A stretch of DNA of 64,000 bases from Tetracentron sinense (taxonomy: Eukaryota; Streptophyta; Magnoliopsida; Trochodendrales; Trochodendraceae). The stretch covers positions 9,302,938-9,366,937 of the forward strand of contig CM026574.1 in NCBI GenBank assembly GCA_015143295.1, in the 5' to 3' direction. A model generated the notes under the pieces. It searched no databases. It was not told where the DNA came from and saw only the letters and a list, made by a program, of their open reading frames with translations. A program made the translations under genes and the position numbers. Of this stretch, positions 5,673 to 25,155 are shown piece after piece. Positions within the stretch are counted from its first letter, which is position 1, and each line of letters opens with the position of its first letter.

Positions 5673-5826
5673 ATTGAACTCAAGATAGTTCAATCGCACA
5701 TATGTGGCGCTTGACTACTTGCAGAGATTTTTATTTTTTATTTTTTAAATTTTCATTTTCGGCCTTCTTTTTTTCTCCTCCAATAGCCAAGAGCCACATA
5801 TGCCATTGAATTCTCTTGAGTTCAAT
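5673..5826. mobile_element. Foldback (MITE-like) repeat overlapping a gene 3' end
   Basis: Imperfect palindrome of about 154 bases. The left arm ATTGAACTCAAGATAGTTCA pairs with the complement of the right arm ATTGAACTCAAGAGAATTCA, and the arms extend about 40 bases through CATATGTGGC. Its right edge contains the stop codon of the DUF4220 gene. No clear target duplication. Confidence 0.55.
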
Positions 5827-7819
5827 GTCGATCGATTGGCCATCTTTGTTGCACGTGTTCGGTTAAACCAAGTTGTGCCATCAGAATCCAGACGTGAGTA
5901 AGCAGTTGTCCGCCTCGTCCGAGCTGCTGGGCATGGTAATTCCCTCTACACTTGATCGCGGCGAAATATAGCATCTCCAACCACACATCCCTCATCATCT
6001 TCCATCTCTCCTCTGTCCTTTGCAATGATTTGGCAAGCTCAATGCCATCCAATAGCACATTCTTGCTCATTTGTTTTTGCGCATCTTTAACATTCTGCTC
6101 AATCCATCGATTTGGCGAACTCAAATTAACTTCTCTAGGAAATTCAGTGTCCATATGAAGCAATATCGTGCAAGCTTGGATTTTATCTGATATTGTGCCA
6201 TCAGAATCAATCGATTTGGTTTTCTGTTCTTCTAAAATTTGCATGGCCCCAGCGCAGATGTCTTGAAACCTTATCTGCTCCGACCAAATTCTATAGTAAT
6301 TGGGCACATTGGGGAGGTCGTTCTTGCCTCCAGACAACAATGCGGCCCCTTTGGGCAACATGAAAGGACGCATGATGTGAAGGTACAACATATAATCTGA
6401 TATCAATTTGCTCACCTGACGTTTTGATGAACTTTCTTTAGAATCGGAATAATAGCATATCTCTGTAGCAATGTGCCAGAGAAGAAGGCTTCTCTCAAAT
6501 TGGACGCCAAAAATCCATTTGAATTTTTCATCAAATTGATGGATCTCTTTAAGCAGCTCATTATTTTCATAATTGTATGGATCCAACAGTTCGGAGAAAT
6601 TTGGTGATTTCTCTTGGAGCTTTTGGAAGATTAGTTCTTTCAAGTCACTAGATATCTCCACTACCGTCATATGCTGATACTTCTCTAACATTTCATTTAT
6701 GCGGTACAACTTGTGGATTCCAAGCGTCGACTTGTCTTTGAGGCAAAAACTTAGTAGACTCAATTGCCCCATGGAGTTGGAGCACCTTTTGTTGCTTGTC
6801 AATCGAAGAGAAGAGATGAGTCGAAGCATGAGATTCAGGAACGAGTTCTGGTGCTTGCAATTCCAAACTATCACCCAGTCAGAGGAAAGTAGTACAATGA
6901 GTGCATACATCTCTAGAACAATAGCTCCCACTATCAATATGTGAGTAATAATGATGTCAATGTTGGAGTAGCCATGCTTCTCAACCATCAAGAACACCCC
7001 AAACAGAGAAATAGTGGTTGACAAACTGATGGCGCGGAGAATGCAACCTAGTCTAGTGTAAACTATGCTCGCCTTGGTGTAGAGTACATCATACATGAAT
7101 CCAAGTTCCATCTCCACCACTTTGAAAGCATCTTCCCAAGATATTTGTTTGAAGTAGGTTTGGCTAAAATCCACATCAAAGACGGTAAGGAAAAGATCTG
7201 CAAAGATACGCTTGAACACCTGGAAGAAGGAATAGGCAACATGTACAACAACGGCATCAGAATGAGATAGATAGTGATATTGATTGAGCATAGATTTGCG
7301 AAAATGCTCGCTGCTTGCTGACCAGAGAACCCATGTCCTCTCTCCATACTTGATAATTCCTGGGACAAATATAGGAATGGCCAGAAACGAGATCCTATTT
7401 CCAGTCCAAGACCTAAGAAAGACATAAAATGCCACCCCTACTTGGACAAGTAGTCCAAGAAAGTGTCTTTTCCACAACTCATTGTCTTCTAAGGAGTAAG
7501 CAGTAATGGTATCGGGGCCGCCGAGGTGCAAAAGAAGAAATGGTGCCCATAATGCAATAAGTGCGTCATTCGGGTCACCAGAATCATTGTTATTGGAATC
7601 TCCTTGGCTGTTAGCGAGGATGACAAGTGAAACAGTTGCCACCCAGTCCGCGGACAAGTAGGCCGACCAAAGGATGATATGCACCCATTTTTTGGCAGTA
7701 TACTTCCTCCATTTGCCGAAAAAAATGAGGACGATTTGTAAAAAAAGGCTGAGTAGAACCATCACGCGGAGCTCCCATCCGTTCCACAGTTTCTGCACCC
7801 TTATTGGGAAAATCTCCAT
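5822..7819 (-). CDS. DUF4220/DUF594 multi-pass membrane protein
   Basis: Intact 665-residue single-exon plant protein. The N-terminal half is a DUF4220 domain: hydrophobic segments near residues 17-36, 45-68, 86-100, 120-136 and 143-157, with the family-typical LHLGGPDTITAYSLEDNELW at 97-116. Two further hydrophobic segments lie in the middle. The C-terminal end carries a DUF594 motif (YHAQQLGRGGQLLTHVWILM). The family is plant-specific and has no established biochemical role; a membrane location is inferred. The ATG at 7819 was chosen because a splice-acceptor-like TTGTTCTTCATAG lies just upstream (boundary 7834/7833), suggesting a 5'UTR intron that would remove an out-of-frame ATG at 7850. 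The stop codon falls inside the edge of a foldback repeat, so the last few residues may be recent. No breaks were seen. Confidence 0.9.
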   Translation of the reverse strand: MEIFPIRVQKLWNGWELRVMVLLSLFLQIVLIFFGKWRKYTAKKWVHIILWSAYLSADWVATVSLVILANSQGDSNNNDSGDPNDALIALWAPFLLLHLGGPDTITAYSLEDNELWKRHFLGLLVQVGVAFYVFLRSWTGNRISFLAIPIFVPGIIKYGERTWVLWSASSEHFRKSMLNQYHYLSHSDAVVVHVAYSFFQVFKRIFADLFLTVFDVDFSQTYFKQISWEDAFKVVEMELGFMYDVLYTKASIVYTRLGCILRAISLSTTISLFGVFLMVEKHGYSNIDIIITHILIVGAIVLEMYALIVLLSSDWVIVWNCKHQNSFLNLMLRLISSLRLTSNKRCSNSMGQLSLLSFCLKDKSTLGIHKLYRINEMLEKYQHMTVVEISSDLKELIFQKLQEKSPNFSELLDPYNYENNELLKEIHQFDEKFKWIFGVQFERSLLLWHIATEICYYSDSKESSSKRQVSKLISDYMLYLHIMRPFMLPKGAALLSGGKNDLPNVPNYYRIWSEQIRFQDICAGAMQILEEQKTKSIDSDGTISDKIQACTILLHMDTEFPREVNLSSPNRWIEQNVKDAQKQMSKNVLLDGIELAKSLQRTEERWKMMRDVWLEMLYFAAIKCRGNYHAQQLGRGGQLLTHVWILMAQLGLTEHVQQRWPIDRH

Positions 7820-7833
7820 CACCCTCCTCTTGC

Positions 7834-8023
7834 CTATGAAGAACAAACATCCGACAATGTAATACTAAACTAACTTATCAATATTAACAATCTAATCTAA
7901 ATAGACAAGGCTCGATAGTAACACGGAGAGTTGGGGGTTTAACCTTCTGAGTCAATAGACTCGATACTAATTATATTCTGTTTGGTAGATAATAAACACC
8001 ATTAAGCAAATAAACTAAGTCCC
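7834..8023 (-). other. Putative 5'UTR intron or promoter side of the DUF4220 gene
   Basis: The TTGTTCTTCATAG|GC acceptor-like site at 7834/7833 sits 15 bases ahead of the chosen start codon. The matching donor and transcription start were not identified. Confidence 0.35.
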
Positions 8024-9045: not shown

Positions 9046-9544
9046 TATAGTGGGCGGCATGTGTGAAGCACGTGAGATAGAGGAAGGGGACACTACAAAA
9101 AAACTATCGCGCAGCGACGGAATAGTAGTGACGGAAAATTTTCCGTCACTAATACATCACTTATAGTGACGGAAACACATGCCGTTACTAATGGTCCGTC
9201 TTTAATTGCTTAAGATTTTTTTTAAAATTAAAATAACTAATAGCGGTGGAATATTTTCCGTCACTAATAGGGCTTATCTAATAGTGACGGACATTTTCCG
9301 TCACTACTTTTATTAGTAACGGAAGTTCTTTATAGAGACGGAATAATTTCTGTTTCTATTGATATTAAGAGTATTAGTGACGGAAATAATTCCGTCACTA
9401 TTGGGTTTAGATTATTAATGACGGAAATATTTCCGTCACTATTAGGTCTAGATTATTAGTGACGGCAATAATTTCGTCACTATTGGGTTTAGATTATTAG
9501 TGACGGAAATAATTCCGTCACTACAACTCATTATATAAAAAATA

Positions 9545-10019: not shown

Positions 10020-10024
10020 CCTGT
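10020..10024. repeat. 5-bp target-site duplication, left (CCTGT)
   Basis: CCTGT directly precedes the 5' LTR and is repeated exactly at 24157-24161 after the 3' LTR. Confidence 0.9.
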
Positions 10025-10340
10025 TGTTGATGATGGTTATTGAAAAGTTTGATTTGTGAAATTTTGAATTTAAGGACGTTGTTCATAATTCAATAAAATA
10101 ATGACACGTGGCTCAAAGGACGTTCTAGCATATTACACATACTAAAATCCTTTCGGGAATTGGTTAACAGAATTCCATGTTTATCTGATAAAAATGATTC
10201 TAGTCATTAATGATCAATGATTTTAAGCTCTTATGTTTTTAGTTCATACAAAGGATTTTCTGCTCATTTATGACAATTTTACCCTTATGTCACTAATGAA
10301 AGATGAAACTATTGCGCCTTTCACGCTATTGGCACAGATT

Positions 10341-10510
10341 CAAGTCCTAACGCTTTTTGGATATTGTTTCAGGCTCTAACGCCTTCGGATATCATTTCAG
10401 GCTCTAACGCCTTTGGATATTGTTTCAGGCTCTAACGCCTTTGGATATTGTTTCAAGCTTTAACGCCTTTGATGTTGATTCAGACTTCAACGCCTTCGGA
10501 TATTCTATAT
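10341..10510 (+). repeat. 28-bp imperfect tandem array in the LTR
   Basis: About six degenerate copies of a 28-base unit built on GGCTCTAACGCCTTTGGATA followed by TTGTTTCA. The same array is present in the 3' LTR at about 22820-22990. Position upstream of the TATA box suggests a U3 enhancer-like role, which is inference. Confidence 0.85.
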
Positions 10511-10786
10511 GACTTCAGTGCCTCGCTCTGGTTTACAACGCCTTTCTTATGATGATAGGTGTGGTATAGATTTGTACCCTCCTTGTATGCCTTTCTGAGG
10601 ACTTCTGCCAGAAAGGAGATTTGTTTTGTCAGGGGTGAACGGTATGGATTGGTACCTCCCCCGTGGGAATGAGTGTGGCTGTTTCCCCTCATTACCTATT
10701 CCAGTGAAGCATGGATTACTTCCTGGGCTGACAGTCAGGGAGAAAGCATTGAGGATGGATTTTTCCTCAGTTTCTCTTAAGGCCTG

Positions 10787-10945
10787 ACGGGAAGGGTGTC
10801 CTCGTCCAACACCTATGATTTCCCTATTGGACCTGAGCTACGGGAAGGGTGTCCTCGTCCAACACCTATGATTTCCCTATTGGACCTGAGTTACGGGAAG
10901 GGTGTCCTAGTCCAACACCTATGATTTCCCTATTGGACTTGAGAT
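10787..10945 (+). repeat. 53-bp tandem repeat, three copies, in the LTR
   Basis: Three copies start at 10787, 10840 and 10893, each beginning ACGGGAAGGGTGTCC. The third is slightly diverged. The 3' LTR has the same three copies, and two of the five LTR substitutions fall in the third copy. Confidence 0.9.
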
Positions 10946-11341
10946 GATTATTAGATGATTATCATCATCGTTATTATTAAACTATCATGATTATTACTCT
11001 AGAGGAGTGTTGCTGTCTGAACACTAATATATTACCTCAGCAGGACAGTACACCATGAAAGCGTATGACCCGCCTTCACGGTGTAGTTACCAATTGCTTT
11101 TGGGGGAGGATGATGAGTTGTGGTTTGGAGGGCTTGGATAGAATTTGTTAAAAGATGGATATTATGAATACCGCTTTTAACCTTTGAAGAAAATATCTGA
11201 AAGCTTTGGTCATAAAAGCTTAAAAGAGGTATGGTGACAAAACGCCTTTATCTTGATGGAATCCAATATTTTCTCTCTAAAAGTCGGTTACAAAAACGGT
11301 TATGACAGCTGTACAAGTTGGTTACAATTTTGATAATCACC

Positions 11342-11350
11342 TATAAATAG
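11342..11350 (+). promoter_or_regulatory. TATA box of the LTR promoter
   Basis: TATAAATAG in the 5' LTR, about 330 bases before the LTR end, with the pyrimidine-rich leader typical of plant LTR R/U5 downstream. A start near 11370-11380 is expected. The 3' LTR copy lies at 23822. Confidence 0.7.
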
Positions 11351-11676
11351 AGGTGACCCCTCCTTGTTGAAGAAGAGAGACTTTCCTTGAGTTCCCAGAA
11401 GATTTCCCAAGAACAACCAGATTTTTTTAAAAGAATTTACAGAGAGAGAAAGTAAAGGATTCATCAAGAAAAAAAAACATTCTGTCACTACTTTTCTTCA
11501 TCGTTCTTTCTTCTCTCCCTCTGAATCATTTCCTTATTTCCTCCTTTTTCTTTCTTGTGTTCTTTGAATCATTTCTTCCAAAAATAACTCAATTTAGAAC
11601 GGTCTGGATATCAGATTTAGGCTAGATTGAGGTTGCAGTAAACCCCATTTCTTCAAAGATCAAAATACCCCCTACA

Positions 11677-11700
11677 TTTTTGGCGACTCCGCTGGGGAAT
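11677..11700 (+). promoter_or_regulatory. Primer binding site
   Basis: TGGCGACTCCGCTGGGGA begins four bases after the 5' LTR. It has the TGG start expected for pairing with a tRNA 3' CCA end. The sequence resembles the tRNA-Arg-type PBS of Ogre/Tat elements; the tRNA identity is from memory and should be checked. Confidence 0.8.
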
Positions 11701-11723
11701 TCTGTAACAATTTTTGAGAGAAA

Positions 11724-14126
11724 ATGGTGACTAAAAGAGGTGCTTCGTCCCAAGCGCATGTTGTTCAAGAAGAAAATAGGGAAGAATCTCATACTTCCAG
11801 AGTGGAAGTTCCTGATCTTTCTGCTGTTCTTGGGCCTTTTCTTGCTCAGTTTCAGGCAACTCAAGTACAGATGCAAGCCCAGATGCAGGCTATCCAAACT
11901 CAGGTAGCAGCTCAGTTAGCAGCATCAGAAAAACAAATGCAGGAGTTTTTCAAAAAAGCCCATCGTGAAGATAATGTTCGCAATTCAGAGAGGATGCAGG
12001 AGCGTACACCTTCTCCATCTCAACATGACGAAGAAAATGACATGCACAATAATCCTCCCAGGAAAGATCCTATTCCTTCTTCTCCACCCTGCAATCATCA
12101 TGAGCAAGAAGGGAGGCATTCCTCATATATGACAGCCGAGGATTTCTCTGAAATGTTTGAAAAGGAGCAAGCAAAACGCTCTGGACTTTCGAATGCTTTC
12201 GATGCTAGACCTCCCTTTTCAGCAAGAATCATGAGAATGGAATATCCAGTAGGATATATCACGCCCCAATTCACTCTGTACAATGGAAGAACTGGAAATG
12301 CTCGAGAGCATGTAATGCGCTTCACTGATGCATTAAGCAGATATGCTAACAATGAAGAGCTTCGTCTCCGCGAATTTGCTAAATCTTTGACTGATCGTGC
12401 CTTCACTTGGTACACAACTTTGGCTCCAAACTCTATTCACTCTTGGGAAGAAATGGTCACTATCTTTTCCAAGAAGTTTTTCTCTGTAGAAGACCGTGTT
12501 ACTCTCAATACCTTGTCGAAAGAGCGGCAAAGACCTAATGAAGATCTGACACAATATGTTCGCCGCTTTCGATATTTGGTTTTAGATTGTCATGAACCAA
12601 CAACTGAGGAGCAACTTGTACAAATATGTGTTGATGGAGCAGCAAAAGAATACAGAGCCTATTTGGAGGTAGCTACTATCCCTTCTTTTGAAAAGCTTTA
12701 TGATGTTTCTCAAAGGCTCAACACAGTCATATCAAGAGCAACCCTACCAAGGTACGAAGATAGATATGGTAGGAGAGATAAGAGAGAATCAGCAATGGCG
12801 GCAGAAAATTCTGGAAGGCGGCCGTTTCAGAAAAATACTTCTTATCAGTCTGACAAAAAACCAAAGTACAACCCAGAAAGCATTCCACCTCCTTTTCCCT
12901 GTAGCATGGCTGAAGTACTACGAATTGTGGAAGTATGGATTGCTGATGGCGTTTTGTACTTACCATCACCATTCCAAAAGCCTACAGAAGAAGACAAACG
13001 AAGCAGCAAATACTGTGTGTATCACCAAACCATACGCCATTCAACAAAAGATTGTTTCTCTCTAAGGCGGATTTTTAATGACAAAATAGCTGCTGGACAC
13101 CTGAAAATCTCAACTAATCCTGAAGGATCTGTCCATCAGGATCCTTTGCCAAATCATAAAGCGAAAGATGTGGTTGCTATGGTCTGTCATAATTCAGCAA
13201 TTATGACAGAAAAAGAAATTGAAGAAGAAATTATCCTTAATAATCAGTCAGCAATAGAAACTCTTTCACAGAGTTCAAAGTTTAAAAACTTCTTTGACCA
13301 GATGCATTTCTCAAAAGCGGCAAGAATAGCTGCAACAGCGGCTTTGACAACAGTTGCAGAAGCTCATTCAGAACATTGTTTTCTTGCCTATTCTGCTACA
13401 AGAAAAGCAATGCCGGAAATTCAAGATGTGAGTTTTACTGCTGATGACATGAAAGCTTCATCGTTAGCTCACAACAAGCCTTTGTATGTTACAGCTTTAA
13501 TAAATTCTATTGAAGCAAAAAGAGCATTGATAGACCCTGGGTCTTCTTTGAACCTTATCCCATTATCAACAGCAATAGCAATGGGATTAGATCCTTCAAA
13601 AATTTCTAAGCAACCAATAGAAATTTCAGGATTTGGAGGACAGTGCCAGAACACTATTGGCTATGCTACTATTAATCTTCAAGTGGGGCCAATAAATTCA
13701 GCAATAAGAGTCCATGTTATTGAAGCCAATGTAAGCTATCATATTCTTCTTGGCCGCCCTTGGATTCACAAGTTCCAGCTAATACCATCAACATTTCATC
13801 AATGTGTTAAAGGAACATACAAGGGGAAAGTCATCAGAATACTAGCAACTGCCACACCATTTGATAAAGCCGAAGCTCATATTTCAGAAGCATTGTTTTA
13901 TGATGAGTTGGCTGAAGAAGGTGAAACCGCTTTTGAAAAGACCAAAGGAGTTATGCTACCATCATCCACTATTCTAACGCCATCAGAAATTTCAAAGGCC
14001 TCAAAAAGACCCCGAGACGAAAGTGTGAAAACAGAAATTCTAAGGGGGAATGCTATCAAAGAATCAAGAACTGGGGGCTGTAAGAGAGTGGTGCAACCAG
14101 ATGGAAGGGTTGTATATATCTTATGA
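11724..14126 (+). CDS. gag-pro: Gag-protease polyprotein (Tat-type retrotransposon)
   Basis: 800 residues from the first ATG after the PBS. A Gln-rich stretch (about 45-75) precedes the retrotransposon Gag core (about 193-310, with the LREFAKSLTDRAFTWYTTLA motif). A CHHC-type knuckle lies at C431-x2-H434-x4-H439-x4-C444, replacing the usual CCHC. The C-terminal part is a retropepsin: active-site D604-P605-G606 (DPGSS, a variant of DTG/DSG) and a later HILLGRPW. Gag packages the element RNA and the protease matures the particle. The frame ends in TGA (14124-14126) followed by CAATCA, and the same frame stays open into pol, so a Gag-Pol fusion by readthrough is likely. Confidence 0.93.
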   Translation: MVTKRGASSQAHVVQEENREESHTSRVEVPDLSAVLGPFLAQFQATQVQMQAQMQAIQTQVAAQLAASEKQMQEFFKKAHREDNVRNSERMQERTPSPSQHDEENDMHNNPPRKDPIPSSPPCNHHEQEGRHSSYMTAEDFSEMFEKEQAKRSGLSNAFDARPPFSARIMRMEYPVGYITPQFTLYNGRTGNAREHVMRFTDALSRYANNEELRLREFAKSLTDRAFTWYTTLAPNSIHSWEEMVTIFSKKFFSVEDRVTLNTLSKERQRPNEDLTQYVRRFRYLVLDCHEPTTEEQLVQICVDGAAKEYRAYLEVATIPSFEKLYDVSQRLNTVISRATLPRYEDRYGRRDKRESAMAAENSGRRPFQKNTSYQSDKKPKYNPESIPPPFPCSMAEVLRIVEVWIADGVLYLPSPFQKPTEEDKRSSKYCVYHQTIRHSTKDCFSLRRIFNDKIAAGHLKISTNPEGSVHQDPLPNHKAKDVVAMVCHNSAIMTEKEIEEEIILNNQSAIETLSQSSKFKNFFDQMHFSKAARIAATAALTTVAEAHSEHCFLAYSATRKAMPEIQDVSFTADDMKASSLAHNKPLYVTALINSIEAKRALIDPGSSLNLIPLSTAIAMGLDPSKISKQPIEISGFGGQCQNTIGYATINLQVGPINSAIRVHVIEANVSYHILLGRPWIHKFQLIPSTFHQCVKGTYKGKVIRILATATPFDKAEAHISEALFYDELAEEGETAFEKTKGVMLPSSTILTPSEISKASKRPRDESVKTEILRGNAIKESRTGGCKRVVQPDGRVVYIL

Positions 14127-14132
14127 CAATCA
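14124..14132 (+). promoter_or_regulatory. Candidate leaky stop between gag-pro and pol (TGA CAA TCA)
   Basis: One TGA interrupts an otherwise continuous frame from 11724 to 17879. The six bases after it, CAATCA, fit CAR-YYA, the context that drives readthrough of the tobacco mosaic virus stop codon. No shift of frame or overlap is needed for pol expression. Confidence 0.6.
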
Positions 14133-14171
14133 AAGGAAACTGATTCATCAAAAGAAAATCAGATTCCCGTG

Positions 14172-17100
14172 ATGGATCAAATATTTCAAACAGAAGAAAC
14201 AAGCGAAATTGGGGAAGCGCCAGAACAGATGCAGGATGGTGTAAAAGCGGTACAAGAAAGCCTTGAAGAAGTAAACATTGTAGAAAGTCTATCAGAAAAG
14301 CGTCCGGTACTTATCAGTTCCAAGTTAACCCCAAAAGAAAAAGAAGAATTGATAAATTTGCTCAAAGAGTACCGAGATATTTTTGCATGGAATTATGAAG
14401 AAATGCCGGGGTTGGATCCTACATTGGTCACACATAAATTGAATATTGAGCCAGGATATGTACCAATGAAGCAAATGCCAAGAAAATTCAGACCAGATAT
14501 TGAAGATCAAATTAAAATAGAAGTTGAAAAGCTTTTGAAAGCAGGTTTTATCAAGCCAATTCAGCATCCAACTTGGTTAGCCAATATTGTACCAGTCAAA
14601 AAGAAGAATGGGCAAATTCGTTGCTGTGTTGATTTCCGGGATTTAAACAAGGCATGCCCAAAAGATGAATTTCCTCTACCCAATATGGACCTATTAGTTG
14701 ATGCAACAGCAGGGCATGATGCTTTTTCATTCATGGACGGTTACAGTGGTTATAATCAGATTAAGATGGCAGCAGAAGATGCAGAAAAAACCGCCTTTCG
14801 GACACCAATTGGAAATTTTTATTATACAGTTATGCCATTTGGGTTGAGAAATGCCGGGGCTACTTACCAAAGAGCTATGACAGCCATTTTTCATGATATG
14901 TTCCATAATACAGTGGAAGATTATGTGGATGACATTGTTATTAAATCACGAAAGCGTTGCAGTCATGTTGAGGATTTAAGAAGAGTTTTTCAACGATGCC
15001 GCCATTATCAGTTAAAAATGAATCCGTTAAAATGCGCTTTCAAAGTGTCTGCAGGCAAATTCCTGGGGTTCATTGTGAATAGACAAGGTATAGATGTTGA
15101 TCCTACAAAAGCTCAAGCAATTGCATCCATGACAGCCCCAAGCACAGTCAAAGAGTTGAAAAGTTTCTTAGGGAAGGTATCCTATATAAGAAGATTCATA
15201 CCAGGACTAGCAGCTGTCACAGTACCCCTTATGCCGCTCCTACGGAAGAACTGTGTATTCAAATGGGAATCAGTACATGAAAAAGCTTTCAAACAACTTC
15301 AACAAATGATGAGTTCAACAACAACTATGATGGCACCAATCCCCAAGAAGCCTTTGGTCCTGTATCTGGCTTCAACAGAAACCGCTGTTGGAGCTCTTCT
15401 AGCCCAAGAAGATTTGTCTGGTTGTGAGCGGCCAATATACTATCTCAGCAGAATTCTCAGAGATGCAGAATTGAGATACCCTCGGATTGAAAGAAGTTGT
15501 TTATCTTTGATCTATGCCTTACAAAAATTCCGTCATTATTTACTATCTCATAAGATTTTTCTGATGACAAAATCTGATCCAATCAAATATCTCATGTCAA
15601 AACCAGTTCTTTCAGGACGAGCAGCTAAGTGGCTCCTTTCATTATCAGAATTTGACATTACATGCCTTTGCCCTCGTGCCATCAAAGGACAAGCAGTAGC
15701 AGATCTATTGGCAAATTTCCCAGGAAATGATGATTTGATATTAAGAGAAGAATTACCAGGAGAATTCCCTGAAGCAATGACTATTGAAGCAGAAGAGGAA
15801 TGGTTCATGTATTTTGACGGATCTAAAACTGCAGATTCAGCTGGGGCAGGTATTGTGTTAAAAGCTCCTGGGGGTGAGGTAATGTCTTTTTCTTTCAAAT
15901 TGGATTTTCCTTGCTCTAACAATATAGCAGAATATGAAGCTCTTCTCATAGGCTTGTCAATTGCTAAAGAGTTAAAGGCCAAAAGAATAAATGTAATAGG
16001 AGATTCCAATTTGGTAATTAGTCAAATGGAAGGGTCATTCAATGTAAAAGATGTTGGTTTGGCTCCCTACAGAACAGCGGTTCAAAAAATAATGACTAAT
16101 TTTGATAAAATAGAATTCAAATATCAAGAGCGTACAAGAAACCGCCATGCTGATGCACTTGCTACTTTGGCATCAAAGTTAATATTTGAAGGAGAATCTT
16201 CTCAGGTGGTAATTGAAAGGCGTATAATAGCTACACCGCTGATAGAAGAATTATGCGACACAGAATCAGAAGAAACAGATTGGAGAGAACCAATTTTGAA
16301 GGATGTCTTTTGCCTTCATGATTCAACAGTGGTCCCTACTACAACACTGAAAGTCTTAAAAAATTTCTTACAGATAAATGGGGATCTGTATTTCAAAGGG
16401 CCTGAAGGAGTCTTGATGAGATGTGTTGGAGCAAAAGAAGCTAAGAAACAAATGATGCAAATCCACACAAAAATATGTGGGTATAATCCTTCTGTTAGTC
16501 TGTATAGGAGGTTACAGCGTTTTGGAATATACTGGCCAACAATGGAAAAAGATGCTGCTATGTTACAGAAAGAATGTTCTGCTTGTCAAATATTGCCAGA
16601 TAAAAAAGAATGTCACTTTACAAATTCTTGGGAAGATTGGAGAAAACCATACAATGACTACTTCACAGATGGAATAATGCCTACTGATCAAAAGGAATCC
16701 TTCAAGTTTAAGAAGAAAGTTGCCAAATTCTATTTTGACAAAGGAGAATTATTCAGAAAAGGATACAATGGTATTGCTCTCAAATGCTTGACTGGAAAAG
16801 AGATCGAAATAGCATTGCATGAAGCTCATAGTGGAGATTGTGGCGTTCACCAAGGAAAAAGAAAGCTGTTTCAACACATTTTGGGGTTGGGATATTATTG
16901 GCCTACCATGGAGGCAGATTCACACTTATATGTTCAAAGCTGTCATCAGTGTCAGATAAGAGGGAATGTTATTCATGCACCTGCACAATCTTTACGGTAT
17001 GTTTCTACGCCCTGGCCCTTCCATACTTGGGGGCTAGATTTAATTGGACCTGTTAATCCCCCTGCTGAAGGATATGTTTGGATACTTGTGGCTACTGAAT

Positions 17101-17879
17101 ATTTCACCAAGTGGGTAGAAGCTATACCATTAAGAAAGGCTACAGGTATCATGGTGGCTAAGTTTATTAAAGAAAATATCATCTGCCGCTTTGGGATACC
17201 AAAGGAAGTCATCACTGATAATGGAACGCCTTTCATAAATTCTAATGTGAGAGAATTACTGGAGAAATATGATATCAAACACAAGAAGTCAACCCCCTAT
17301 TATCCTAAAGGGAATGGGCAAGCAGAGGCTACTAACAAGACTATCCTGAAGATAATTGGAAAAATGATAGAAGGAGCTCATAAAAAGTGGTGTGAAAGAC
17401 TTCCAACAGCACTCTGGGCTTACAGAACTTCAGCAAGGACTGCAACAGGTGTTACCCCTTTCTCTTTAGTATATGGGACAGAAGCCGTTGTACCTCTGGA
17501 AGTTAAGATACCATCTACAAGAATTGAAGTATTTGATGGAGAAGAGGCATGCCTCCAAGCTACTAGATTAGCTCAGCTAGAAGTTATGGATGAAAAGCGT
17601 GAAGCTATAGCTATAAAGACAAAAGCGTATCAAAAAAGAGTTGCTAAAGCGTATGACAAAGCAGTACGACATAGAATTCTAAAGGAGGGTGACCTGGTCC
17701 TTCGAACAGCTATTCATATCAGGAATGGTACAAAAGTGGCAAAGTTTACTCCTAATTGGGAAGGGCCATTTTTGATAAGACAAAGTTATGACAGCGGTTA
17801 TTGTCTTTTGTCTACACTATCTGGTGAAGTATTACATGATCCTATCAATGTAAAATGGTTAAAAAAGTACTATGCTTAA
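14172..17879 (+). CDS. pol: Pol: reverse transcriptase, RNase H, archaeal-type RNase H, integrase
   Basis: 1235 residues counted from the first ATG; translation probably enters through the upstream TGA. Reverse transcriptase: catalytic D189 (SFMDGYSG) and Y251-V-D-D254. The following Ty3-type RNase H has lost its first catalytic Asp (LYLASTETAVG). A second, archaeal-type RNase H keeps all four catalytic acidic residues: D549, E587, D611, D661. Two integrase HHCC-like modules follow. The first is degenerate (H765-N772-C802-C805) and the second intact (H886-H893-C924-C927). The integrase core has D956, D1016 and E1052, with 35 residues between the last two (DD35E). The order RT-RH-aRH-INT marks the Tat lineage. 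No frameshift or stop interrupts it. Confidence 0.95.
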   Translation: MDQIFQTEETSEIGEAPEQMQDGVKAVQESLEEVNIVESLSEKRPVLISSKLTPKEKEELINLLKEYRDIFAWNYEEMPGLDPTLVTHKLNIEPGYVPMKQMPRKFRPDIEDQIKIEVEKLLKAGFIKPIQHPTWLANIVPVKKKNGQIRCCVDFRDLNKACPKDEFPLPNMDLLVDATAGHDAFSFMDGYSGYNQIKMAAEDAEKTAFRTPIGNFYYTVMPFGLRNAGATYQRAMTAIFHDMFHNTVEDYVDDIVIKSRKRCSHVEDLRRVFQRCRHYQLKMNPLKCAFKVSAGKFLGFIVNRQGIDVDPTKAQAIASMTAPSTVKELKSFLGKVSYIRRFIPGLAAVTVPLMPLLRKNCVFKWESVHEKAFKQLQQMMSSTTTMMAPIPKKPLVLYLASTETAVGALLAQEDLSGCERPIYYLSRILRDAELRYPRIERSCLSLIYALQKFRHYLLSHKIFLMTKSDPIKYLMSKPVLSGRAAKWLLSLSEFDITCLCPRAIKGQAVADLLANFPGNDDLILREELPGEFPEAMTIEAEEEWFMYFDGSKTADSAGAGIVLKAPGGEVMSFSFKLDFPCSNNIAEYEALLIGLSIAKELKAKRINVIGDSNLVISQMEGSFNVKDVGLAPYRTAVQKIMTNFDKIEFKYQERTRNRHADALATLASKLIFEGESSQVVIERRIIATPLIEELCDTESEETDWREPILKDVFCLHDSTVVPTTTLKVLKNFLQINGDLYFKGPEGVLMRCVGAKEAKKQMMQIHTKICGYNPSVSLYRRLQRFGIYWPTMEKDAAMLQKECSACQILPDKKECHFTNSWEDWRKPYNDYFTDGIMPTDQKESFKFKKKVAKFYFDKGELFRKGYNGIALKCLTGKEIEIALHEAHSGDCGVHQGKRKLFQHILGLGYYWPTMEADSHLYVQSCHQCQIRGNVIHAPAQSLRYVSTPWPFHTWGLDLIGPVNPPAEGYVWILVATEYFTKWVEAIPLRKATGIMVAKFIKENIICRFGIPKEVITDNGTPFINSNVRELLEKYDIKHKKSTPYYPKGNGQAEATNKTILKIIGKMIEGAHKKWCERLPTALWAYRTSARTATGVTPFSLVYGTEAVVPLEVKIPSTRIEVFDGEEACLQATRLAQLEVMDEKREAIAIKTKAYQKRVAKAYDKAVRHRILKEGDLVLRTAIHIRNGTKVAKFTPNWEGPFLIRQSYDSGYCLLSTLSGEVLHDPINVKWLKKYYA

Positions 17880-17956
17880 TAAGAAAAGTAACAAAATTTT
17901 CCTTTTGTATTCATATGAAATTTCACAAGAGTTACAAAAGAATAAAGAAAAAGCTT
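17880..17956. terminator. 77-base spacer between convergent pol and the antisense gene
   Basis: The pol stop (17877-17879) and the stop of the minus-strand gene (17957-17959) face each other across 77 AT-rich bases. Both transcripts must end in or beyond the other gene, so overlapping 3' ends are likely. Confidence 0.5.
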
Positions 17957-19179
17957 TTACAAAATGTCAGCAGTAAAGCCTCTCTCATTCAGATATACAA
18001 GTCTTTCAGCAGAAGCTTTTAAACGAATATATTCTTCATGATCTGCTTTGATCTCTTCTTGTAGAACTGACAGACTATCTTGAGCAGCTTTTATTCCTTT
18101 TTCTTTTTCTTCCAATATGGCTTGATGGCGGGCAATCTCTTGACGAATCATATGAATATTATCTTGATCGTTTGATATCGCTTTCTTGATTTCTTCCGCT
18201 TTGACCACTTTATTTTTGTAGGAGCTATTCAGCCTGGCAAAGCTCTTGGCTTGAAAAAATGTAACAGATAGACTACTCAGAAAATCTGTTAACCATTTTA
18301 CATTAACATTGATATCCTCTAACTCCTTCAGCTCCTGCCCCCAGTCTTCAAGAGTCTTTATCCTCAGAAATGCAAGATGAGGCTTGATATCTCTGATCCT
18401 TCGGATGACAGAGCATACTGTCTCTATGCAACCCGCCCTAATGATAGGATTCTTCAGAGAACAGGAAGCAGTGATGTCCTGATAGCGTTTAATTATCTCT
18501 GTCCATAAAGGGACTGAGCTTTCAGAAACAGGGTATCGCCTCACAATGTCATCAAGAGAATCAACTGATAGCGGCTCTATTGAAGTAGAAGGTGTAGCAG
18601 GGTCCTCACTCATAAAGTTGCCAACAAAAGCGGATAATTCTGATGTAGTAACTGGCGAAAAAGCTGTCGTATGAAGATCAGAATCAGTGATTACCATTTC
18701 CTCATTAGAAGCAACATTAATTTCCATGACAGTACTGGTAGCTTGAATATCTTCATGGACGCCTTCCGGAGCAGCTTCTGTTTCAATAACTTCTAAAGAT
18801 CCAATTATAACGCTTTCAGTAGAAGCAATCACTTGAGCGCTGACACTCTCAGTTGAAGGCATTGGCGTATGAGTGCTTCCGCCAACGGAAGGAGTGTTAT
18901 CAAGAGAAGAAGAAACCTCTGCAATGATTTCAGGAAGAGGCCGTTGCACAGAACTCTGCACCACTGAAGAGAAAAACGCTATTTCACTGGCTGAAGGAGG
19001 CTCCACTTCGATAAGTTGTTCTGAGGCCTCAACTCCAGTAGTTCTTTCATCAAAAATATTGTGCACTTCAGCCTCAACAGCGTTTTGGTCCTTGGGAAGA
19101 TTATCAGAAAGGATCTCAACTGTAGTAGAAGCAGAAGCAATGTTTCCTGGTATTTCAGCCTGAACGCTTTCAGAAGGGC
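17957..19179 (-). CDS. Antisense PMD gene, last coding exon (coiled-coil tail)
   Basis: The open frame extends up to 19195. It is Ser/Thr/Glu-rich in its first half. It ends in a helical region with a strong coiled-coil pattern (segment from EEIKKAISNDQDNIHMIRQE to AERL), about 110 residues before the stop. The exon 5' edge is uncertain. An acceptor TTTTGAAG|GC gives an exon start at 19179, in phase with the donor GTAG|GTTAGT at 19277. An alternative acceptor TTCTAACAG (exon start 19196) needs a weaker donor. The function is unknown; a coiled coil suggests oligomerisation. No domain was recognised beyond that. Confidence 0.75.
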
Positions 19180-19276
19180 CTTCAAAATAATACATACTGT
19201 TAGAACATTATAATGATTGTAATGATAAGCATATAAGCATGAATATTGATGAAATACTTTTTAAACTGCTACTAAC

Positions 19277-19772
19277 CTACGCTCTCAGAATCATCAATAG
19301 CGTCAATCATAAGAGGTGATGAAGATTGCGCTGTCCTTTGCTGAAGAAGCGACTTCGCCTTGATAGCTTGCGATCTCATTCTCTTCAGAGATGTTAACGC
19401 TCTGGCTATGTCAATAGTTCTGGCAGGATTTGCAGTTTTCCGAACACCAGAAGCTTTAGCAGATTGATCTTTCTTTTTAGAAAGCGGAGAGGAACTAGGT
19501 TCACTCTCAGGCCAAACATTGGCCAAATTCTCAACTTGTACTCTTGCTTCCGCCGATGGAGGGAAAGGAATATCGGCAACATTATCTTCAGGGATGCTGA
19601 GTCCCACTGGAGTAGTTGGAGTTCCAGAGCTCCCTGCACCAACATCCGAAAGCGGTGCTGTGCTTTTTTCCTGAGTGACAGAAGCCTCAGTTCTTCCTAA
19701 CTCATGTTGAGTCTGAAGATTCTGCTTGCGCACAATCAAAGGCTCGTTATCTTCGCTATCAGAAGAAGGATC
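19277..19772 (-). CDS. Antisense PMD gene, middle coding exon (low-complexity linker)
   Basis: Begins after a clean acceptor TATCACAG|GAT (intron end 19773) and starts with an acidic Ser/Asp/Glu stretch in phase with the previous exon. The open frame runs to 19272, but a donor-like GTAG|GTTAGT ends the exon at 19277. The 165 codons are rich in Ser, Thr, Pro and charged residues, with a basic patch near KKKDQSAKASGVRKTANPAR. This looks like a disordered linker between the PMD and the coiled-coil tail. Confidence 0.72.
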
Positions 19773-19885
19773 CTGTGATAGATAAAAAAAAAATAATATA
19801 TATAAGTAACAAAAAATTATGCAAATGAGAAATTGAAAAGCGTATGAATAAGAAAAATGCTTTAATTATAAAATTGTTTGCTTAC
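19773..19885 (-). other. Intron of the antisense PMD gene
   Basis: 113 bases with donor CAATCA|GTAAGC and acceptor ATCTATCACAG after a T-rich tract. Phase 0 on both sides. The signals exist only on the minus strand, so splicing would not damage the sense genomic RNA. Confidence 0.8.
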
Positions 19886-21749
19886 TGATTGGCTCTTCCG
19901 TTTCTTAGAAAGAGGTGCCTTCTTTTTTATTGCAATTTTTTTGATTCTAGGCGCTCTTGGAGTAGCCGCCTTTGGAGCAGTAATAATTACAGGTTGGGGA
20001 GTAATGTTTTCCTCTCGGATTTCTGAAGAACCTCCAACGGCGGGTTTCGATTTAGATTTCTTGTGAGGAGAAGCTACCGCTTTCCTTTTCTTGCCTGCAC
20101 CAGGGGGCTCTTTCAGACATTTTTCTTTGTCCATAGCCAGATTAACAGTTTGACTGAGCATTGGCGGACCCTGAACAAAGGTTTTGAAGGTAGCAATGCA
20201 AGCTTTCCAGAAAAGCTGGTAGTTTTTCGTACATCTACCTGTCCTATGCTCCCCAGCCAAGTAAAAACCAGCAACAGATGGCCTTAAGTTTAAGGACCAA
20301 CTTTCCAGAATGAAAGCCTTCATGGTTCTCTTTAGAGAAAAAGATTCAGCTGTACCATCCGGAACGCCTTGATCAAGCCCAAACTGCCTCAGACACCGAT
20401 CAGGATTGTAAGATTCAAGGCAGAAACTGTTGGTTTTACCGCCATCAACGCTGTATAAACCGACCAAATGACACTTGGACAAAATGGCAAAACAGTGAAG
20501 ATCCTTCAAAGAAACTTCTGCTCTCTCCTCAGTACTCATGCCTATGAAAGATAAAGGCTCCTCAGAATGATAAAAGAATCTTTCAATACCTCTTGAAAGC
20601 TCAATGTAAGGTCTGAAGCAGAAGCATTTCTCCTTGTCAATAAAGTCAAAGATCAACGCATCCTTCTTTCTGGCAATACTACTCCACCGCCATGCCCTTG
20701 GACTTGGGAGATCTTCAACAGCGGTATTATCAGGTTGCAAAGGAGAAAACTGCCTAGCTGAAGGCGCATAACCGGGAAAACGTTCCCATAACCACATTTG
20801 AAGAAAAGCGGTATGAACAAATGATTCTATGAGAGAAGAACCTGCTGACCAGGCCTGACACTTATGGATTTGATCTAAATTCTTGTATAAAGTTCCCAAA
20901 AAATAAATTCCAAGAGGGAAACTCTGACCGTCAGCTAGGCGGAAAGCCAATGGAAATAATCTATCCAAAACTTTGTCAGTAGGAGCGCCTTCAAAGACAT
21001 ATCTAGACAGCCACATGCAGATGAACGCTGTCAACTCTAAAGGAGACTTGTACTCCTTTCCATATTGATAGTCTCTGACTCCTGTCTCTTTGTTCACAGG
21101 ACCTTTCTCCCTGAAGAAATAGCGTACCCAGCCGTAGAAATTTGGCCGCCTTGCATGAGACTCCTTTGAAGCTCCCCAAACTGGATTTACTCTCGATTCC
21201 CAAACCAGAGCATGCAAAAGTCTTGACGCTTTTATCTCTTCTCTACTCAAAACAATGTCTTGTATGTCATTATTCCCGAAAACGGGTAATCTCCATAACG
21301 CCATCACATCTTCCAAAGTAGGGGTGATTTCTCCCCATGAAGTAATAAAAGTGTGAGTTTGACTGATTCCACCTAGTAACTAACTGAGATAAACTATCTG
21401 TATCTTTCCTAATCTCAAAATCCTTCGAAAGCTCTATAGCTTTAAAAATCTCAGCTGCATGAAGTTTTGGCCCATACTCTGGGTGAGTGAGTATATAATC
21501 ACACCAAGCTGTCCACTCCTTGGTACAACCGCTGTGAGAACTAAAATTAACCTGAGAAAGCGTGAAATCTTTTCTTTCTATTCTGAACATAGTAGTAGCA
21601 AAAGGAGGTGGACAAAATCCTTTAGTTCCATCGATGTCACCATAGGGCAATGACCATCCATCTGAAGGAACAGCGGTATCCCAGGAATGATGCATAGCTG
21701 AATCCCAAAATTCGTTACTTAAAATATTTTTTTGAGAAGAAGATGCCAT
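19886..21749 (-). CDS. Antisense plant mobile domain (PMD) protein, main coding exon, one frameshift
   Basis: Starts MASSSQKNILSNEFW at 21749, two bases after a splice acceptor. It encodes a plant mobile domain (PF10536-like, aminotransferase-like family): a WCDYILTHPEYG region, then SWGEITPTLEDVMALWRLPV, then FICMWLSRYVFEG and RLFPLAFRLADGQSFPLGIY. The exon ends in two Lys-rich, nuclear-localisation-like patches (KKRKAVASPHKKSKSKP and KKIAIKKKAPLSKKRKS). The reading frame changes by one base near 21345-21352, at a CAAAC run: PMD homology continues from one frame into the other, so this copy appears broken by a single-base insertion. Host PMD proteins MAIN and MAIL1 act in gene silencing; whether this one counters or uses silencing is inference. 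Confidence 0.85.
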
Positions 21750-21751
21750 AG

Positions 21752-22044
21752 CTGAAAGCGTAAAAGTTGCAGAAATAAAAATAAATAAATTACAGTGTAT
21801 TCTAAAAAAAAATGGTGATGAAAATGAATGATGAAACAAAAAAAAAAAAAAAAAAAAAAAAAAAACAGTAACATACATATAATAACAACAATAAAAGAAT
21901 AAAAAGTAGATAAAATGACATAATTTACAGATGATCAAAATTTCTACAATGACGAAAAATAATATAATAAAAAAAAACAGCAAGCATAAGTATGAGCAAT
22001 CAAATAGAAATGATAAACAAAAAAGTAAAGAAGCAAAGACTCAC
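21752..22044 (-). other. 5'UTR intron of the antisense PMD gene
   Basis: 293 bases with donor AATTCTG|GTGAGT and acceptor ACGCTTTCAG|CT immediately before the ATG. It includes a homopolymer of 28 A on the plus strand (21838-21865, poly-T in the gene sense). Confidence 0.65.
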
Positions 22045-22216
22045 CAGAATTCTAAGAAGATGTCCTGGAAATCCAAATAAAGATTGAAGATCCTTGAAAA
22101 CCACAATAAGATCAATGAAAACACGAGCACAGAGGAAAGATAAAAACTCAAAGTATGCTTGCACGAAGAAGAAGATGAACAGTAAAACAATAAAGAACTG
22201 ATTATTTGCTTTTATA
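22045..22216 (-). promoter_or_regulatory. Promoter and leader exon of the antisense PMD gene
   Basis: On the minus strand a TATAAAAGC box (complement of 22208-22216) lies about 165 bases before the 5'UTR donor. A start near 22180 would give a leader of about 135 bases. This gives the antisense gene a promoter inside the element, independent of the LTR. Positions are predicted from motifs only. Confidence 0.5.
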
Positions 22217-22489
22217 ATGATTAAACATTTATGATATGCGGTTTCCAAGGAGCACGTTTTGATTCAAAATTCAAAAAAAAGGGGTACGATCATAATGACT
22301 TTGACAGGCTGGCTACATGATCTTATTGGCTATAAATGTGGCAAAACTATTTTAAGCAGGATCCGAAAAGACGTTTCTTTCAGACGCCAAATTTATGATA
22401 GTATATTATTTAATGAACTCCTTTTGTCATGATGGTTTGTCTGCTCAGACGCTTTTAGAGTAAGATTAGGCCTAAAAGCGCCTTCACAG
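22217..22489. other. Spacer between the antisense promoter and the PPT
   Basis: No open frame of note. Probably holds upstream regulatory sequence of the antisense gene. It contains several GACGCTTTTAG/AGCGCC words like those in the LTR array. Confidence 0.4.
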
Positions 22490-22503
22490 ACAGGGGGCTA
22501 AAA
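22490..22503 (+). promoter_or_regulatory. Polypurine tract
   Basis: CAGGGGGCTAAAA directly before the 3' LTR start TGTTGATG, the expected site for plus-strand DNA priming. It is slightly imperfect (CT in the middle). Confidence 0.75.
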
Positions 22504-24156
22504 TGTTGATGATGGTTATTGAAAAGTTTGATTTGTGAAATTTTGAATTTAAGGACGTTGTTCATAATTCAATAAAATAATGACACGTGGCTCAAAGGAC
22601 GTTCTAGCATATTACACATACTAAAATCCTTTCGGGAATTGGTTAACAGAATTCCATGTTTATCTGATAAAAATGATTCTAGTCATTAATGATCAATGAT
22701 TTTAAGCTCTTATGTTTTTAGTTCATACAAAGGATTTTCTGCTCATTTATGACAATTTTACCCTTATGTCACTAATGAAAGATGAAACTATTGCGCCTTT
22801 CACGCTATTGGCACAGATTCAAGTCCTAACGCTTTTTGGATATTGTTTCAGGCTCTAACGCCTTCGGATATCATTTCAGGCTCTAACGCCTTTGGATATT
22901 GTTTCAGGCTCTAACGCCTTTGGATATTGTTTCAAGCTTTAACGCCTTTGATGTTGATTCAGACTTCAACGCCTTCGGATATTCTATATGACTTCAGTGC
23001 CTCGCTCTGGTTTACAACGCCTTTCTTATGATGATAGGTGTGGTATAGATTTGTACCCTCCTTGTATGCCTTTCTGAGGACTTCTGCCAGAAAGGAGATT
23101 TGTTTTGTCAGGGGTGAACGGTATGGATTGGTACCTCCCCCGTGGGAATGAGTGTGGCTGTTTCCCCTCATTACCTATTCCAGTGAAGCATGGATTACTT
23201 CCTGGGCTGACAGTCAGGGAGAAAGCATTGAGGATGGATTTTTCCTCAGTTTCTCTTAAGGCCTGACGGGAAGGGTGTCCTCGTCCAACACCTATGATTT
23301 CCCTATTGGACCTGAGCTACGGGAAGGGTGTCCTCGTCCAACACCTATGATTTCCCTATTGGACCTGAATTACGGGAAGGGTGTCCTCGTCCAACACCTA
23401 TGATTTCCCTATTGGACTTGAGATGATTATTAGATGATTATCATCATCGTTATTATTAATATTATCATGATTATTACTCTAGAGGAGTGTTGCTGTCTGA
23501 ACACTAATATATTACCTCAGCAGGACAGTACACCATGAAAGCGTATGACCCGCCTTCACGGTGTAGTTACCAATTGCTTTTGGGGGAGGATGATGAGTTG
23601 TGGTTTGGAGGGTTTGGATAGAATTTGTTAAAAGATGGATATTATGAATACCGCTTTTAACCTTTGAAGAAAATATCTGAAAGCTTTGGTCATAAAAGCT
23701 TAAAAGAGGTATGGTGACAAAACGCCTTTATCTTGATGGAATCCAATATTTTTTCTCTAAAAGTCGGTTACAAAAACGGTTATGACAGCTGTACAAGTTG
23801 GTTACAATTTTGATAATCACCTATAAATAGAGGTGACCCCTCCTTGTTGAAGAAGAGAGACTTTCCTTGAGTTCCCAGAAGATTTCCCAAGAACAACCAG
23901 ATTTTTTTAAAAGAATTTACAGAGAGAGAAAGTAAAGGATTCATCAAGAAAAAAAAACATTCTGTCACTACTTTTCTTCATCGTTCTTTCTTCTCTCCCT
24001 CTGAATCATTTCCTTATTTCCTCCTTTTTCTTTCTTGTGTTCTTTGAATCATTTCTTCCAAAAATAACTCAATTTAGAACGGTCTGGATATCAGATTTAG
24101 GCTAGATTGAGGTTGCAGTAAACCCCATTTCTTCAAAGATCAAAATACCCCCTACA
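22504..24156 (+). repeat. 3' LTR of the Tat-type element
   Basis: 1653 bases matching 10025-11676 with five substitutions and one indel. TG...CA ends, followed by the CCTGT target duplication. Confidence 0.97.
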
Positions 24157-24161
24157 CCTGT
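24157..24161. repeat. 5-bp target-site duplication, right (CCTGT)
   Basis: Exact repeat of 10020-10024. Confidence 0.9.
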
Positions 24162-24580
24162 TGATTTGGATACGGTGAAAAACACCCTAACCAACTAACT
24201 CTTCTTCTTTGCTATTGATTGAAGTATATTGAGAGATACCTAAATGAGATTATCAAGAGACCATTACTCTTATTCAAACAACTCCAAATCATTCTCACTA
24301 TTATCGCTCGTAGTCGGCTCTTCTATGTACTTATTAATGATGAAATCCCTGTATTCTTTGTAGATTTGGGTATTTTTGAGATCGAGCTTCCATTGAAGAA
24401 CTCTTTCAAAGAAATTTTCTCGGTTTCGTGGAAGGGAAGAATCAGTGGAGATCAGAGATCCGGCTATCAAGCTCTTCAGGAGGATGATTCTGTTGCCGGA
24501 AAGTCGGATTCCAGCTGATTCTTGAGAGAAATCCGATCTGGATTGTGGATTTCAAAGATTTTTTTTTTTAAAAAAAAAAG
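24162..24580. other. Interior of the CACTA element, right of the nested insertion
   Basis: Minus-strand open frame over 24470-24270 (NRENFFERVLQWKLDLKNTQ...) has coding-like composition but no recognised family. It may be a captured exon. The segment would be contiguous with 9545-10019 before the retrotransposon inserted. Confidence 0.3.
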
Positions 24581-25155
24581 GGCATTAGTGACGGAAATTA
24601 TTCCGTCACTAATATTAATTTAATATTAGTGACGGAATAATTTCCGTCACTAATGCCTTTCCGTCACTAAATTCGAAGTTTAAATTACCAATATTAGTGA
24701 CGGAAACTTTCCGTCGCTACTAGTGACGGAAAAATATTTCCGTTACTAATAACCTTTAGCCACGGACGCATTAGTAACGGATTAGCGACGGATAGTTTTC
24801 CGTCACTAATAGTAAATAGTGACGGAAAATCAAGCATTAGTGACGGAAAATTTCCGTCACTGCTCGGTAGTTTTCTTGTAGTTGGAGAGAGATAATCCTA
24901 GTGAGATCATTTCGAAAAAAAAAAAAGATTATATTTTGGGTATAGAAACTTGAGGGGCATTTTGGTTAAAAAAATTATGAGGGACACGTTACTTATAGAA
25001 ATATGGCATAGGGACATTTTAAGAACCAAAAAACTTTAGAGACATTTTGGGTATAACAAAGAAAGGGGGCTGAGTGGAGCATTGGCGAGACGTTCTTCTT
25101 TTGGAGCATTTTCCAAGAGAGCAAGAAGTCTGACTACTCCTTTGAGGTCGTCATC

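Follow-up and report, generated by a model that had tools for sequence, protein, structure and literature searches.

A predicted spliced antisense gene for a plant mobile domain and PEARLI-4-like protein in a Tat/Ogre-type retrotransposon of Tetracentron sinense

A 64,000-nucleotide stretch of the Tetracentron sinense genome (GCA_015143295.1, contig CM026574.1, positions 9,302,938 to 9,366,937; hereafter the window, with positions counted from its first letter) contains a Ty3/gypsy-type long terminal repeat (LTR) retrotransposon. A four-exon gene sits on the opposite strand between its pol and 3′ LTR. An initial annotation had described a complete antisense gene with its own promoter, three introns, and a plant mobile domain (PMD), and had proposed a dedicated accessory factor that perhaps acts on silencing. 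The locus raises the question of whether this gene is real, and, if so, what its protein might do for the element. The features of the element and the gene model are listed in Table 1.

Sibling copies were collected from the genome (1.16 Gb, 1,479 contigs) by a search with the PMD protein, in which 89 of 764 candidates were scored. The window was aligned with 49 copies, comprising 29 loci returned by the PMD search and 20 of 59 further rows. The donor GT was kept in 49/49, 50/50, and 50/50 copies, and the acceptor AG in 49/49, 50/50, and 49/50 copies, for introns 1, 2, and 3, respectively. Introns 1 and 2 stand where the initial annotation had placed them. The third intron that it had claimed is also present, and its donor is specified here: GT occurs at 19280, 19276, and 19272, and since the first two shift the frame of exon 4 and only 19272 preserves the exon 3–exon 4 frame, 19272 was adopted. 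The lengths of the introns across copies represented all three classes modulo 3.

The copies varied in length very unevenly along the gene. Indels per kb per pair amounted to 17.8, 27.0, and 10.7 in introns 1, 2, and 3 and 13.2 in the leader, versus 0.40, 0.16, and 2.9 in exons 2, 3, and 4. In 60-base windows, the rate was about zero over most of exon 2, rose slightly in its basic tail (20040–19921), and climbed abruptly at introns 1 and 2 and where intron 3 begins. Indels in multiples of three made up 69% of those in exon 2 versus 8–36% in the leader and introns. When the exons were joined unedited, 11 of 19 copies gave a single frame from the ATG to the final stop (1,187–1,200 codons, stop included); 20 copies had been fetched for this count, and L052, from which most of exon 4 is absent, was left out.

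The pooled ratio of nonsynonymous to synonymous polymorphism (pN/pS) was 0.093, 0.292, and 0.372 for exons 2, 3, and 4, and no pair with enough changes attained 1 (601, 844, and 661 pairs, respectively). These values were calculated from intact exons, namely 36 of 50 copies for exon 2 (seven were dropped for a length that is not a multiple of three and seven for stops), 47 of 50 for exon 3, and 41 of 50 for exon 4, many of the last being partial where the locus ended. Reading exon 2 in its two shifted frames gave 1.61 and 2.38. In exon 2, singletons showed a pN/pS of 0.25 and shared variants 0.07, a pattern as expected of selection on the transposing lineage that is relaxed after insertion. 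The initial annotation had named in advance a comparison with sibling copies, asking whether the antisense frame is as degraded as non-coding sequence; the gene was not so degraded.

As a check, 581 bases covering the promoter, the leader, and a portion of intron 1 were used as a query; of 230 candidates, 40 rows were scored. Twenty-eight of the 40 rows were already in the PMD list, and in 25 of these the frame spanned 621 codons or more and the match contained no stop. Six of the 12 rows outside the list were read; the PMD exon was broken over several frames in five and mostly lost in one. In a search with the reverse transcriptase (RT), an antisense PMD lay 3′ of pol in at least 68 of 115 rows, and a same-strand PMD was among the matches listed for none of the 115.

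The exon/intron contrast, the pN/pS values, and the joined frame together make the antisense gene more than chance. These results indicate that a spliced, protein-coding antisense gene is almost certainly real and that its protein is kept by purifying selection in the family, as befits the dedicated, intron-bearing accessory gene that had been proposed. The copy in the window is slightly broken and not complete. Between 21400 and 21340, within the PMD exon, it carries one base more than 49/49 aligned siblings, and its exon 2 is thereby split into two overlapping frames; many sibling copies have a single open frame across the PMD. Because of this frame change, the window copy would not yield the full protein, and the word "complete" in the initial annotation has to be withdrawn for it. 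A promoter of its own is plausible: the TATA box is conserved in all alignable copies. We rejected this box as strong evidence, since 11% of 7-mers in the TATA region were equally well kept. Minus-strand transcription, splicing, and a nuclear location of the product are predicted from this model.

Table 1 Features of the retrotransposon and its predicted antisense gene in the window.
Feature	Position	Strand	Basis
Whole LTR retrotransposon (Ty3/gypsy, Tat/Ogre type)	10025..24156	+	Paired LTRs and target-site duplication
5′ LTR	10025..11676	+	Repeat and LTR comparison
gag-protease frame, terminated by UGA	11724..14126	+	Open reading frame (ORF) and Pfam domains
pol, in the frame of gag-protease: RT, RNase H, second RNase H-like domain, integrase	14127..17879	+	ORF and Pfam
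Exon 4: variable stretch, PEARLI-4-like domain, coiled coil, stop	17957..19196	-	Pfam, pN/pS, joined frame
Intron 3 (phase 2)	19197..19272	-	Sibling splice sites and joined frame
Exon 3, linker	19273..19772	-	Indels, pN/pS, joined frame
Intron 2 (phase 0)	19773..19885	-	Sibling splice sites and indels
Exon 2, ATG at 21749; PMD and basic tail	19886..21751	-	ORF, Pfam, pN/pS
Intron 1 (5′ untranslated region)	21752..22044	-	Sibling splice sites and indels
Leader exon	22045..22185	-	5′ end estimated from the TATA box, inferred not mapped
TATAAAA box of the antisense gene	22210..22216	-	Sequence; present in 49/49 alignable copies
3′ LTR	22504..24156	+	Repeat and LTR comparison
52 dispersed AARGCG sites, candidate binding motif RAARGCGK	10320..22484	21 on +, 31 on -	Hexamer counts

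The predicted protein combines domains that the initial annotation had named with one that it had overlooked. The PMD exon, as claimed, matched PF10536, with 106.4 bits in the window piece (cut-off, 34.9; E = 2.3e-30) and ca. 156–168 bits over positions 2–346 in siblings. Exon 2 closes with basic patches resembling nuclear localization signals (NLS), namely KKRK, KKSK, KKK, and KKRK, in line with that annotation. Coiled-coil-type matches were found at the end of exon 4, as it had stated, and the same exon also bears a PEARLI-4-like domain (PF05278; ca. 35 bits, 34.6–35.2, cut-off 29.9, E = 2e-8). This domain scored above the cut-off in 7/7 sibling exon 4 sequences scanned, and its signal comes mainly from the stretch before the coil, which alone gave 29.2 bits, just under the cut-off. 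Four PMD rows outside the sibling list (C16:33503443, C18:18314888, C23:5360310, and C14:9884820) had a same-strand PEARLI-4 row 1.0–1.1 kb downstream, with 56.9, 47.1, 44.3, and 39.0 bits, respectively, all higher than the 35.2 bits of the window; the pairing of PMD and PEARLI-4 is therefore not limited to the closest copies.

In a protein database, the PMD had four matches at 22–28% identity, three of them named (one from Asparagus officinalis and two from Quercus suber), and exon 4 had no homologue at E ≤ 0.001. The best relative of the PMD in PDB had an E value of 0.54 and is not credible. An AlphaFold model of the PMD piece built from five sequences reached a mean predicted local distance difference test score of 32.7 and was discarded. 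Separately, a second repeated PMD group (L004–L008) showed nearly equal PF10536 scores (172.8–174 bits), and a cluster of PEARLI-4 rows with several open frames lies at G000:C11:20741810-20990877, perhaps a tandem array of host genes.

A clue to what the protein might act on came from hexamer counts on both strands of the element. The two most over-represented hexamers were AAAGCG (30 vs 4.4 expected) and AAGGCG (22 vs 2.6). AARGCG was observed 12 times in the LTR (0.55 expected), 3 in the promoter and leader (0.39), 6 in gag (2.2), 11 in pol (2.4), 8 in the PMD part of exon 2 (2.7), and 6 in exon 4 (2.0), and none of four flank pieces was enriched. The LTR holds two tandem arrays (28-bp units at 10328–10499 and 53-bp units at 10734–10943), both repeated in the 3′ LTR, and each 28-bp unit bears the motif. 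With these arrays left out, the bases outside the chosen motif were also biased, a purine preceding it in 38/46 sites (p 0.002 vs other AA) and G or T following it in 37/46 (p 0.03 vs other GCG). The extended motif RAARGCGK occurred at 37 sites in 12,479 bases of the element versus 4 in 48,601 bases of flank. AARGCG density was 4.3–6.0 per kb in four element loci, with a median of 5.4 over the 50 aligned copies. Over 49 copies, 23 motif sites were retained at 0.919 versus 0.746 for region-matched CpG hexamers, a value reached in 2 of 20,000 draws. A motif spread across the whole element makes it more likely that the protein acts on the DNA of the element itself.

Introns on the genomic strand of a retroelement could be spliced out before reverse transcription. 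On genomic RNA, introns of an antisense gene read CT...AC, and the usual spliceosome does not use such borders. The three introns would hence be usable by minus-strand RNA only, and the plus-strand genomic RNA would pass them on intact when it is reverse transcribed. Splicing would yield a protein of ca. 1,190–1,200 amino acids with the PMD, a basic NLS-like tail, the linker, the PEARLI-4-like domain, and the coiled coil. Inside the nucleus, this protein may act on the DNA of its own element via the dispersed RAARGCGK, directly or with a partner, and may thereby keep the element expressed against host silencing; interference with the host PMD silencing pathway is one possible route. Taken whole, this chain is our best explanation, held at slightly less than even confidence. 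Its parts differ in strength. That the protein acts as a nuclear regulator on the chromatin of its own element is, in our view, as likely as not, and anti-silencing in particular is a more tentative proposal.

The same gene might instead serve another job, as accessory proteins of retroviruses do: its product could assist in exporting RNA, in bringing the complex into the nucleus, or in integration, and the motif would then be bound by a host factor or have another cause. Selection and the gene model are compatible with any trans function, and antisense accessory proteins of plant elements have been discussed in such terms (PMC7264820, PMC11963269; these and the other papers below are cited from excerpts of their text). 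This explanation is quite possible, at somewhat less than even probability, but alone it leaves the density and retention of AARGCG across the element unexplained.

Alternatively, the motif could be a by-product: CpGs lost from the older flank would persist in a young element, and the motif was selected once the data were known. The element is indeed young, the motif includes a CpG, and one element served for both choice and test. Against this, shuffles that keep codons or CpGs (codon shuffles in coding parts and dinucleotide shuffles elsewhere, the two LTR arrays left out) failed to reproduce the motif: AAAGCG and AAGGCG still ranked first and second (27 vs 6.8, z 7.5; 17 vs 4.2, z 5.9), the highest z for any hexamer across 200 shuffles being 5.29. 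Moreover, motif sites outlast other CpG hexamers, and the other PMD loci (L001–L005 and L008) had AARGCG counts at background. A by-product seems less likely than not. Finally, the idea that antisense RNA and not protein matters, with double-stranded RNA tuning the element (a possibility raised in PMC7264820), is very improbable. In its favor, an antisense transcript would end beside or within pol and overlap genomic RNA, but the exon 2 pN/pS of 0.09 and the frame-keeping indels need a protein.

Several results weigh against an antisense gene whose protein acts through RAARGCGK. The sibling copies were collected by protein score, a choice that favors low pN, and the pN/pS values come from intact exons only. 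No PMD was among the matches listed for 47 of the 115 copies found with RT. Intronless copies of the exon 2/exon 3 junction or of the leader/exon 2 junction, searched for with up to three mismatches, numbered none, giving no trace of splicing; the unspliced exon 2/intron 2 border occurs at 181 sites in the genome. AARGCG was not clearly enriched in exon 3 (3 vs 1.2) or the introns (1 and 1), and the three motif sites in exon 3 were retained less than the controls (0.755 vs 0.825). The motif was chosen and tested on the same element, and the link between protein and motif is hypothetical.

The host element is flanked by a 5-bp target-site duplication, CCTGT (10020–10024 and 24157–24161). Of 1652 aligned LTR sites, 5 are mismatched, and two gap columns were counted besides (K ca. 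0.003), so that the insertion is young. Tat (Ogre/Retand) elements are distinguished by a second domain of the RNase H-like type, placed after RNase H and ahead of integrase (PMC6317226). The Pfam domains of pol occur in the order RVT_1, RT_RNaseH, RVT_3, Integrase_H2C2, and rve, with RVT_3 lying between RNase H and integrase. This order fits the definition of Ogre and Retand in PMC6317226 and places the element in the Tat lineage of Ty3/gypsy elements. The primer-binding site is TGGCGACTCCGCTGGGG; the Ogre lineage is defined by RT phylogeny and a primer-binding site for tRNA-Arg. A single UGA parts gag-protease from pol, both in one frame, with CAATCA directly 3′ of it (14124–14132 for the stop and these six bases). 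We take this to agree with the CARYYA readthrough context. The pol frame had exactly 1250 codons in about 45 of the 115 RT-search rows, as expected if the UGA stop is a family feature.

Around the insertion, short repeats of the type AGTGACGGAAAT...ATTCCGTCACTA occur on either side (9368–9523 and 24579–24693) and perhaps belong to an older mobile element. A minus-strand frame of 674 codons with DUF4220 and DUF594 (5822–7846) is likely a host gene. Another frame, of 251 codons (42745–43500), contains zf-BED and DUF659 and is presumably a piece of a hAT-type transposase.

Both gypsy elements with PMD genes and accessory genes in antisense orientation have already been published. Gypsy-borne PMDs are described in PMC5418596, PMC6317226, and PMC9289625, a literature that cites Steinbauerova 2011; Ikeda 2017 (PMC5418596) has gypsy-only PMD-A clades, and Neumann 2019 found a PMD in 57% of Ogre elements (PMC6317226). 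As here, the PMD there belongs to an additional gene carried by a Tat/Ogre-type element, whereas the exon structure, the selection test, the PEARLI-4 fusion, and the element-wide motif are given here and not in the excerpted descriptions of PMC5418596 and PMC6317226. In the open-licence literature of PMC, a scope outside which most subscription papers and supplements fall, we found, judging by titles, the openings of abstracts, and excerpts, no description of an antisense intron-bearing PMD gene, a retrotransposon gene with PMD and PEARLI-4, or such a dispersed motif; the predicted three-intron PMD and PEARLI-4 gene thus has no earlier report that we found there. PMC3212565 and PMC5822635 were rejected as relevant literature, sharing only the wording "plant mobile element".

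The antisense genes of Grande (gene23), RIRE2, and Retand likewise lie between pol and the 3′ LTR (PMC7264820, PMC11963269). For gene23, PMC7264820 reports a promoter of its own and a product located in the nucleus, and antisense genes are reported for Retand elements (PMC11963269). Retand-lineage genes are reported to carry Transposase_28; in contrast, the present gene has PMD and PEARLI-4 domains and three introns. Ogre and EVADE are also plant LTR elements with introns, but there these are on the genomic strand and here on the antisense strand (PMC12786077). Retrotransposition reporters use the mirror image of the antisense-intron design (PMC12786077). The present family suggests that a retroelement can keep introns by placing them on the strand opposite its genomic RNA.

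The host PMD proteins MAIN and MAIL1 act in silencing (PMC5418596, PMC7156037, PMC9899485). They share with the present protein a PMD and, as far as its location can be predicted, a nuclear role touching transposable element silencing; they differ in being host genes of the PMD-C clade, and PEARLI-4 is unmentioned in the excerpts of these three papers. PMC5418596 treats it as a fully open question whether host PMD genes such as MAIN and MAIL1 descend from those borne by gypsy elements, and states that what the PMD itself does remains undetermined. The present family makes this question testable, since its gene model is defined, its young copies are numerous, and its DNA bears a candidate motif. 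The role in silencing that the initial annotation had suggested stays hypothetical; what that annotation observed largely holds, and its interpretation does so in part.

The anti-silencing VANC proteins of VANDAL elements bind short motifs that are abundant in the element encoding them, and they bring about methylation loss (PMC5735166, PMC10398659). The dispersed RAARGCGK sites are the closest counterpart of such targets in the present element. The likeness lies in a candidate protein encoded by the element and a short motif that recurs densely in it, partly in tandem arrays; such a motif was found here in one element family. VANDAL, however, is a DNA transposon, and the candidate motif of the present LTR element is dispersed through coding parts too. 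A VANC-like self-recognition evolved by an LTR retrotransposon, in which an antisense gene with introns that genomic RNA cannot splice would encode the PMD and PEARLI-4 protein, and this protein would recognize RAARGCGK element-wide, also in coding sequence, and lift host silencing, is possible but rather unlikely. If it were true, the host silencing proteins MAIN and MAIL1 would be relatives of an element-borne silencing antagonist.

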